Shown here piece after piece: positions 34,587 to 36,513 of a stretch of 64,000 nt of DNA (position 1 is the stretch's first letter; each line of letters starts with the position of its first letter). Location: positions 248,001 to 312,000 of the forward strand of contig NZ_FWFF01000001.1 of the NCBI RefSeq assembly GCF_900163715.1. Direction: 5' to 3'. A program made the position numbers and the translations under genes. The notes under the pieces are model-generated. The model saw nothing but the letters and a program-made list of their open reading frames with translations, ran no database searches and was not told the DNA's origin. This stretch comes from Brevibacterium yomogidense (GTDB lineage: Bacteria > Actinomycetota > Actinomycetes > Actinomycetales > Brevibacteriaceae).

Positions 34587-34664
34587 ATGACACGACCCGA
34601 CTCTCTGCTGTGCTGGCGCCGCCGGCACATCGACAACATGGTCATCACCACGTCGTCCTGTTGA
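34587..34664 (+). CDS. sulfur/cysteine-type leader peptide
   Basis: A 25-codon ORF with ATG 34587 and TGA 34662-34664 encoding a peptide with an LLCWRRRHIDN core and TTSSC immediately before the stop. This matches the actinobacterial putative leader peptides (core RRHxD, Cys at or near the end) found upstream of sulfate and organosulfur transport or metabolism genes. Ribosome stalling at the terminal Cys codon when cysteinyl-tRNA is short is the likely signal. It lies 61 bp before the ABC binding-protein gene on the same strand. No other gene lies in this 270-bp gap. Confidence 0.72.
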   Translation: MTRPDSLLCWRRRHIDNMVITTSSC

Positions 34665-34667
34665 GCT

Positions 34668-34685
34668 GAGCCGCACCGACGGCTC
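34668..34685 (+). promoter_or_regulatory. hairpin directly after leader peptide
   Basis: GAGCCG (34668-34673) and CGGCTC (34680-34685) form a 6-bp stem 3 bp after the leader stop. A stalled or terminating ribosome would cover it, so it could act in attenuation or translational coupling. Confidence 0.45.
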
Positions 34686-34725
34686 TCACGCCCTCCCCGC
34701 TCGCTCTTCGGACGAAAAGAACACC

Positions 34726-36513
34726 GTGTCCTCACACACCCCCCGATCGACCTCACCCAGCCCTGTCCTGGGCGCACCGGCCAGCGCACACACCGCCGCC
34801 GAGGCCGTCCTCACCCCGCGCACCATTCCCCGGCGAGCGCTGCTGGGCGGCGGCCTGGGCCTCGGCGCCCTGCTCACCCTTGCCGCGTGCACGCCTGCGG
34901 ACACCGCCGCCGTCGACCTCACCGGCGACCCCACGCCGGGCGGCGTGCTGCGGTACTTCGAGCCGCAGACCTGGACGACGCTGTTCCCACCGCAGGCGGG
35001 CTTCTACCCCAACGGCGGCATCGTCAACAACATCACCGACCGCCTGCTCTACCAGGACGAGGAGACACTCGACCTGCACCCGTGGATCGCGGAGGAGCTG
35101 CCGGAGGTCAACGAGGACGCGACCGAATTCGTCTTCCGCATCCGTGACGGCGTCACCTACTCCGACGGCTCACCACTGGACGCGGCGAACGTCGCGAAGA
35201 ACTTCGACCTGTTCGGTCTGGGCGACAACGCCCGCGGCCTGCCGATCTCCGAGCAGATCACGAACTTTGCCGGCAGCGAGGTCGTCGACGACCGCACGGT
35301 CGTCTTCCGCTTCGACGCTCCCGCGCCGGGCTTCCCGCAGGCCACGTCGACGATGAACGCGGGCCTGCTGTCGAACGCGACGCTGGACCTGGACTCGGAG
35401 GGCTTCGGCCCCGGCCGCGCAACAGGGATCTCGACCTCCGGCCCGTTCTACATCGCCGATGAAGTCGTGGGCACCCGCCTGTCCGTCCGCGTCCGTGAGG
35501 ACTACGACTGGGCACCGCCGCACGTCACACACCAGGGCCGGGCGTACCTGGACGGGCTCGACTACCTGGTGAACGCGGAGTACTCGGTGCGGATCGGCGC
35601 GCTGGTGTCCGGCCAGGCCGACGGTGTGCGCGACGTCCAGGCGCCGGACGAGGCCCGCATCGTGGAGAGGGACATCCAGCTCTTCGCACAGCCCACGAAC
35701 GGCATCAACAACTGCATGAGCTTCCGTGAGCGCGACCCGATCCTCGCGGACGTCGAGGTCCGCCGGGCACTCACCGCCGCGATCGACCGTGAGCGCATCG
35801 TGAGCAAGCTGTTCACCGACAACTACCCCGTCGCCACCGGCATCCTGGCCACGAACGCGGCCGGCTACGTCGAAGCGCCCGGCGCGTGGGCATTCGATCC
35901 GGAGGAGGCGGACCGCATCCTCGACGAGGCCGGCTGGGAGCGACCCGCCGACGGCGGCTACCGGGTGAAGGACGGAACCCAGCTGAGTGTCCGGGTCAAC
36001 ATCGCGCTGCCGCAGCCTCGGTCGCGGGAGGTCCAGAGCCTCGTGCAGGAGGACTTCCGCCGCGTGGGCGCCCGACTCCTGATCAACGAGGGCGACCAGG
36101 CGCAGCAGACCATCGACTCCGCCAACCTGGACCGCGTGCAGATCTACCACTCGATGGTGGCGCGCGCGGACTACGACGTCGTCGCCAGCCAGTGGTCGGT
36201 GAACAACCGCAATGCGTTTCTCAACCACGATCCGGAGACGGACGAGTGGGGCGACGAGGAGGTCGAGCGGATCCTTGCGAAAGTCACCGGATCCGCCCGC
36301 GTGGAGGACCGGGAGGCCGCCGTCGCGGAGCTCCAGGAGCACTTCATCGACCAGGCCCTCGTCGTGCCGCTCTTCGAGGAGCCGCAGGTGTTCGGCTTCC
36401 GGCGGACCGTCCAGGGCTTCGGCACGGAGCCGGTGGGCCGTCCCCGCTTCTACTCCGTCTGGCTGGCCGACCCCGACCGGGCCGCTGACGCCGGCGAGAT
36501 CTCGGAGGTCTGA
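34726..36513 (+). CDS. family 5 (oligopeptide-type) ABC binding lipoprotein
   Basis: 595 aa, GTG start at 34726. The leader is Tat-like (RRALLGGGLGLGALLTLAAC), with the lipobox Cys at about residue 54. The SBP_bac_5 fold follows: GGVLRYFEPQTWTTLFP, GIVNNITDRLLYQDEE, FRIRDGVTYSDGSPLDAANV, EVRRALTAAIDRERIVSKLF. It resembles the group annotated as TIGR04028/KPN_01854-type binding proteins, whose relatives sit in sulfur-linked clusters. With the leader peptide upstream this argues for an organosulfur or cysteine-derived ligand rather than plain peptides. First of a four-gene ABC operon. Confidence 0.87.
   Translation: MSSHTPRSTSPSPVLGAPASAHTAAEAVLTPRTIPRRALLGGGLGLGALLTLAACTPADTAAVDLTGDPTPGGVLRYFEPQTWTTLFPPQAGFYPNGGIVNNITDRLLYQDEETLDLHPWIAEELPEVNEDATEFVFRIRDGVTYSDGSPLDAANVAKNFDLFGLGDNARGLPISEQITNFAGSEVVDDRTVVFRFDAPAPGFPQATSTMNAGLLSNATLDLDSEGFGPGRATGISTSGPFYIADEVVGTRLSVRVREDYDWAPPHVTHQGRAYLDGLDYLVNAEYSVRIGALVSGQADGVRDVQAPDEARIVERDIQLFAQPTNGINNCMSFRERDPILADVEVRRALTAAIDRERIVSKLFTDNYPVATGILATNAAGYVEAPGAWAFDPEEADRILDEAGWERPADGGYRVKDGTQLSVRVNIALPQPRSREVQSLVQEDFRRVGARLLINEGDQAQQTIDSANLDRVQIYHSMVARADYDVVASQWSVNNRNAFLNHDPETDEWGDEEVERILAKVTGSARVEDREAAVAELQEHFIDQALVVPLFEEPQVFGFRRTVQGFGTEPVGRPRFYSVWLADPDRAADAGEISEV

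Follow-up and report, generated by a model that had tools for sequence, protein, structure and literature searches.

Switches that read cysteine supply through a cysteine codon in a leader are already a known kind. Cysteine-responsive leaderless leaders have been described in mycobacteria (PMC9094748, PMC13236596), and the polycysteine leaderless short ORFs of Canestrari 2020 (NF042936, Ms4527A), so far as the available sections of those two articles describe them, are like the leader treated here in their predicted leaderless start, in ending with Cys codons and in their position upstream of sulfur genes. The Brevibacterium leader differs from them in having one last Cys instead of a run, except at locus L077, and in its nearly fixed length of 26 codons. 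Another comparison is provided by NF042934, which NCBI names only as a putative leader peptide (cis_reg_atten), and which has an RRxHID-type core and a terminal Cys in common with the leader of the window, that is, of the whole 64,000-nucleotide stretch of Brevibacterium DNA that was analysed. Eight Brevibacterium leaders (from 8 of 57 genomes, all at the importer locus; 30.8 bits in one relative) lie above the 27-bit cut-off of this family, but the window peptide itself is not matched even with an E limit of 10, and the RRxHID motif is missing from 22 of the 46 loci of the genus.

The importer that follows the leader has described counterparts as well. TIGR04027, TIGR04028, TIGR04029 and TIGR04030 form a cluster (LLM, binding protein, CMD, peroxidase-like) to which NCBIfam assigns no function. 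The window contributes a qualifying binding protein to it, and in most relatives LLM and CMD genes are present too, whereas the window's clade has neither beside the importer. In Corynebacterium glutamicum the annotations of cg2678-74 (binding protein, permease, duplicated ATPase, CMD) are alike (PMC2807442), but these genes are regulated by a repressor, McbR, and no such leader is described in the sections of that article that were available. The scm/ytn cluster for S-alkylcysteine salvage in Bacillus subtilis combines an acetyltransferase, an LLM monooxygenase and an M20 enzyme, of which only the M20 was recognized beside the importer in the window.

The leader and its promoter

The initial annotation had drawn attention to a 25-codon ORF with an RRRHID motif and a Cys codon just before the stop, 61 bp upstream of an ABC importer. 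The sequence agrees, and the observation of a cysteine-codon leader is confirmed well beyond chance. The elements concerned are as follows.

34548..34553, plus strand: -35 hexamer TTGACA
34571..34576, plus strand: -10 hexamer TTAGAT, 7 nt 5' of GTG 34584
34584..34664, plus strand: leader ORF of 26 codons, VMTRPDSLLCWRRRHIDNMVITTSSC followed by the stop
34614..34634, plus strand: W-R-R-R-H-I-D motif, codons 11-17 (RRRHID, codons 12-17)
34659..34664, plus strand: terminal Cys codon TGT (34659-34661, codon 26) and stop TGA
34665..34725, plus strand: C-rich spacer of 61 nt from the leader stop to the importer GTG 34726
34726..36513, plus strand: substrate-binding lipoprotein of the importer, TIGR04028, GTG start

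The ORF first proposed runs from ATG 34587 to the TGA ending at 34664 and encodes MTRPDSLLCWRRRHIDNMVITTSSC in 25 codons. Most likely, the better start is GTG 34584, one codon earlier, which makes that ATG codon 2; this start is favored by the promoter spacing and by the leaders of relatives. TTGACA and TTAGAT are separated by 17 bp, and since TTAGAT stands only 7 nt before the GTG, the window mRNA is predicted to be leaderless. A leaderless-type promoter, defined by a -35 element with at least five of six matches to TTGACA and a T....T -10 element located 5-8 nt before the start codon, precedes 44 of 45 leaders and none of 334 control ATG or GTG triplets from the same loci. On this spacing, the 5' end of the transcript is predicted to coincide with the start codon in those 44 loci. 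Farther 5', beyond the -35 element and about 45-60 nt from the start of the leader, many relatives (L036-L065) also share a conserved sequence resembling CATGTCTCAATATTAAG, which could be a regulator site; it was not seen in the window's clade.

A search of the window's genome with the pattern RRHxD...C-TGA returned the window leader as its sole match. No Rfam family matches the leader region at the gathering threshold, and no terminator-like hairpin was found in the 61-nt spacer.

Conservation of the leader in Brevibacterium

TIGR04028 is matched above cut-off in 46 of 57 Brevibacterium genomes, and the locus was taken from all 45 besides the window's; B. yomogidense and B. senegalense are among the named relatives that have it. 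A sub-cut-off paralogue (L079) was excluded from the counts over 46 loci, and L072, truncated by a contig end, stands outside the 45 of the promoter and length counts. As the genomes are related, counts across the genus do not represent independent events.

Cys is the last leader codon in 43 of the 46 loci, window included. The exceptions are L077, which ends CCCH, L042, where the RRxHID-type motif is kept and Cys is absent, and L066, where the leader, in a stretch that contains a run of C, is out of frame, and TTGTTGA is retained. Complete leaders have 26 codons in 39 of 45 loci, 8 codons in two, and 25, 28, 31 and 46 codons in one each, the start positions in five loci having been set by hand with the help of the promoter. 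The 8-codon leader, MRTNGADC (L039, L056), starts right after the -10 element and retains the final Cys; in these two oriented loci of about 5.8 kb, the N-terminus of the importer lies only tens of bases past it. In related species, start, length and final Cys persist even in leaders that have lost the remainder of the peptide. In L078 (G039) the match to the binding-protein gene falls into two parts, as a frameshift would cause, next to an intact class B leader.

The motif itself, written R..H[IVL]D, is carried by the leaders of 24 of the 46 loci. Among named strains, the leader of B. aurantiacum ATCC 9175 bears it and that of B. linens ATCC 9172 lacks it, and B. permense (L096) and B. iodinum ATCC 49514 (L160) have leaders of class B. 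Among the 16 motif-bearing leaders of class A, 441 of 863 codon pairs with a single difference are synonymous (neutral expectation 23.8%), as against 105 of 493 (neutral 25.4%) among the 12 motif-less leaders of class B, a test that left out L063, a near-copy of L054, and L078. The peptide is therefore under selection in class A and not visibly so in class B, and start, length and Cys-stop are retained in both alike. Of all parts of the leader, the Cys-UGA end is conserved best. The class A alignment holds 13 of the 16 members (L036, L064 and L073 excluded for spacer length). In the binding-protein tree, class B forms one clade (100/98), and the remaining motif-less leaders require further changes. 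All seven members of the group on the window's side (window, L069, L072, L074-L077) carry the motif, which is therefore probably ancestral, the root of the tree being a midpoint root only.

How the leader may act

We consider it probable (about 0.7) that shortage of cysteine makes ribosomes pause at the final Cys codon of the leader and that the pause raises expression of the TIGR04028 importer. The anatomy and conservation of the leader, its second appearance in front of a metQ-like operon, and the identity of the importer can be read directly from the DNA; that ribosomes pause, and what pausing does in Brevibacterium, we infer. From a sigma-70-type promoter, predicted and conserved, an mRNA would begin at the leader start codon, and ribosomes would load on its 5' end, translate the 26 codons and reach the Cys codon just before UGA. 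Scarcity of charged Cys-tRNA would then make the ribosome pause at the leader end, queued ribosomes would hold the 5' segment of the leader off the importer ribosome-binding site (RBS), and more of the TIGR04028 importer would be made, leading to uptake of a sulfur-containing nutrient.

For the last step we lean towards translational rather than transcriptional control. Pairing between leader and RBS is clearest in a single clade and weak in the window. In class B leaders, codons 4-7 pair with the Shine-Dalgarno region of the importer; 93.3% of cells are paired in this first helix (13 distinct rows, in an alignment, A2, that includes L067, not a class B member), and one of its eight pairs is changed on both sides. 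The consensus energy in class B is -27.6, against -11.9 (sd 2.7) in column shuffles, a procedure that does not preserve dinucleotide content. In class A, UGCAGA at the leader start pairs with UCUGCA just before the Shine-Dalgarno sequence, with hardly any variation among the 13 of 16 members aligned (the same three excluded for spacer length), and the leader:RBS duplexes are not significantly stronger than those of shuffles. The window's duplex has a z of -3.34, and its mRNA folds at z -3.14 with the first bases on the importer start, but this pairing is not kept in L076. Leader:RBS pairing was not accepted as a feature of the whole genus. Masking the stall site produced no rise in predicted RBS accessibility in class A or class B.

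The pause may instead act on transcription, which we regard as a possible but clearly less probable course. The ribosome at Cys/UGA would cover a Rho-loading site in the C-rich spacer, and once it left, Rho would stop the transcript; E. coli tnaC is the model for a ribosome-covered Rho-loading site. The spacers have 41% C and 10% G in class B, 37% C and 19% G in class A, and 49% C and 24% G in the window's clade, percentages given without a spacer control, and such C-richness may be common in spacers as GC-rich as these; the spacer of the window's clade, besides, is not G-poor. The missing intrinsic terminator and the strong conservation of the Cys-UGA end would fit Rho as well. Rho has been suggested for cys leaders of other Actinobacteria in the part of PMC1262725 that was available, whereas the mycobacterial leaders are described as translation attenuation in the corresponding part of PMC13236596.

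Returning to a cysteine-dependent pause with translational control, a more elaborate form of it would treat the leader as a ruler, fixed at 26 codons, whose two sensors, an arrest element and the Cys codon, are separable, and would include the class B loss and the 8-codon form. We hold this rather doubtful. W-RRxHID, 9-15 residues from the end, would be the arrest element, acting within the nascent chain while this is in the exit tunnel, for which TnaC is the comparison, and would make the ribosome pause at Cys/UGA; the length of 26 codons would fit a ribosome queue that keeps the 5' segment off the importer RBS; and class B together with the other motif-less lineages would have lost the arrest element, RNA pairing and the bare Cys codon being sufficient there. 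A search of the literature found no paper explaining the RRxHID motif.

It is unlikely that the leader is only a device for leaderless entry and coupling, to which cysteine supply is irrelevant. Leaderless starts are common in Actinobacteria, and the interior of class B leaders is without visible peptide constraint, as the codon-pair counts indicate; but Cys stands last in nearly all loci, those of class B and of the 8-codon form included, and the same leader precedes a metQ-like operon.

The importer and its neighborhood

The initial annotation had recognized a TIGR04028-like binding protein in a family 5 importer. The protein scores 726.6 bits against a cut-off of 468.5, and permeases and a fused ATPase were found as described, in an order that is conserved in relatives. 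The genes and neighbors of interest are listed here.

36516..37700, plus strand: importer permease 1
37697..38584, plus strand: importer permease 2
38581..40638, plus strand: fused double ATPase
30782..31444, minus strand: Glyoxalase_3 (VOC) protein, conserved neighbor (PF13468, 123.3 bits)
41985..42407, minus strand: Ohr-type hydroperoxide reductase, neighbor in the window's clade (TIGR03561, 168.3 bits)
42268..43437, plus strand: short-chain dehydrogenase ORF, true start probably internal, near 42634

In the TIGR04027/28/29/30 cluster, the importer makes up the conserved core. Of 47 gene sets, those of the window and of one paralogue among them, 36 have a TIGR04027 LLM gene 3' of the importer and 37 a TIGR04029/04030 CMD-peroxidase gene; the VOC protein lies 5' of it in most of the genus and was matched in 42 of the 45 relatives' loci, with a second copy in the window at 30061-30822. 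Microbacterium, Leucobacter, Mycetocola, Agromyces, Rothia and Corynebacterium have this core too, in some cases without LLM. In the window's clade (window, L074-L076), where LLM and CMD are absent beside the importer, Ohr (a fragment in L074) and the short-chain dehydrogenase are present instead; in other genera, 11 of 49 loci contain a homologue of the latter. The window's lineage has lost the LLM partner: no LLM above the TIGR04027 cut-off was found in the window's genome (best 98.2 bits against 412.9), and a CMD relative elsewhere in the genome is below cut-off (199.7 against 233.15). In the same genome, a CMD/peroxidase-like gene lies near rhodanese-like and YbdK-type ligase-like genes, named by eye (L297, G000:C7:23000-38000).

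Some further observations were made along the way. Two adjacent genes on the minus strand of the window, 33498-33923 and 33963-34457, encode small similar proteins (GDRI.R..DG.H.VES.APSPAD), neither of which matches NCBIfam, the 33963-34457 protein being without a Pfam match too. At 20915-21200, minus strand, Rfam RF02514 (5'_ureB sRNA) scores 52.7 bits, above its gathering score, which is unexpected in an actinobacterium. A 4-kb contig labelled Stenotrophomonas maltophilia (L133) encodes an importer of actinobacterial type and is perhaps a contamination.

The link to sulfur

A sulfur role of the leader-importer system is well supported. The proposal that the leader is of the kind preceding sulfur genes was borne out in three Brevibacterium genomes (L248-L250; G008:C16, G011:C3, G030:C1), in which a leader VTT..WRRLHIDLM..TTV.C precedes metQ-like, metN-like and metI-like permease genes, the last judged by eye. 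These leaders have 26 codons and the promoter layout seen at the importer, and are among the best sub-threshold matches of NF042934; the best TIGR04028 match of each of the three genomes is below cut-off. As MetQ and MetN there score below the NCBIfam family cut-offs (PF03180 is above its own), the substrate of this metQ-like importer is uncertain. Among more distant importers of Streptomyces, below the TIGR04028 cut-off, an RRRHIDL..C leader is present in 8 of 14 loci, one of which has an LLM gene after the ATPase (TIGR04027, 115.3 bits, below cut-off) and an NtaA/DmoA-type monooxygenase upstream.

The sulfur role is further supported by published work, as far as the available sections go: cg2678-74 of C. 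glutamicum is placed in the McbR sulfur regulon (PMC2807442, PMC2580772, PMC6892785), cg2678 rises together with the ssu genes in starvation and is marked R (PMC6892785), and a four-locus-tag oligopeptide importer of B. aurantiacum ATCC 9175 is induced in sulfur depletion (PMC6706770). The last may be the importer described here. That cg2678 is a TIGR04028 gene would follow from the TIGR04028 and TIGR04030 matches above cut-off in C. glutamicum and from a gene order that fits cg2678-74.

Outside Brevibacterium the leader is no general mark of the importer, and this idea was dropped. The initial annotation had held that conservation of the importer without the leader would refute its reading; in part this is what was found, since none of 53 loci of other genera has an RRxHID leader, but the apparent Corynebacterium counterpart is sulfur-regulated otherwise. 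RRxHID leaders were likewise found in none of 11 other over-cut-off loci of the class. Short ORFs with terminal Cys occur in 6 of 53 loci of other genera against 56 of 1060 control windows, about twice as commonly. Three Corynebacterium ORFs ending VLLWAHPRRTDRSVQFC, which overlap an operator-like palindrome, were not accepted as leaders. In Corynebacterium sp. 74A (L144), two McbR-like boxes with 9 and 8 of 10 matches to the consensus (22 of 1000 control windows reach 9) lie about 160-190 nt before the importer match, which suggests another sulfur control of the same importer; the other three Corynebacterium loci reach only 7 of 10.

These observations bear on the notion that the importer takes up peptides and is controlled by nitrogen or by starvation in general, with an indirect link to sulfur. 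Its sequence family, of the oligopeptide/nickel type, would be in keeping with that, but the cysteine-codon leader, the place of the apparent C. glutamicum counterpart in the McbR regulon (PMC2807442, PMC2580772, as far as available) and the LLM partners in most relatives make it quite improbable.

The M20 gene

40675..41925, minus strand: M20 gene, convergent with the importer

The initial annotation had made this gene, which is indeed present at the far end of the importer, part of the system. It adjoins the importer in none of the 45 relatives, even the nearest, whose binding proteins are 95-96% identical; there, Ohr follows the ATPase gene without an M20 between. The whole region taken from each of the 45 gave no M20 hit. 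Closer M20 homologues (about 63-73% identity) exist in some 20 other genomes, none near the importer among the rows compared by eye. The proposed import of an N-acyl-S-alkyl-cysteine and its deacylation in the cell by the M20 enzyme is not supported, because of this absence from all 45 relatives, and we consider it highly improbable: YtnL, ScmP and YhaA of B. subtilis are M20 N-acetylcysteine deacetylases clustered with monooxygenases (PMC12757645, in its available part), YxeP is the second-best solved match of the window protein (198.2 bits) and a distant M20 (24-30% identical) occurs in 9 of 49 loci of other genera, but an N-acyl-glutamine aminoacylase ranks first among the solved matches (340.6 bits), all that the nearest sister genome offers is a 47% paralogue located on a different contig, and no acetyltransferase or LLM was recognized beside the importer in the window. 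The M20 gene was rejected as a part of the importer system on the relatives, the aminoacylase match and the sister paralogue.

Implications

With start, length and final Cys in nearly all species and the motif in about half of them, Brevibacterium offers a natural experiment. Should an arrest element and a Cys codon indeed act as separable sensors, the genus would hold peptide-assisted and codon-only forms of one switch, plus a minimal form of 8 codons. The leader connects sulfur supply with an importer cluster that many Actinobacteria possess, a link of relevance for cheese-ripening Brevibacterium and its making of sulfur volatiles.
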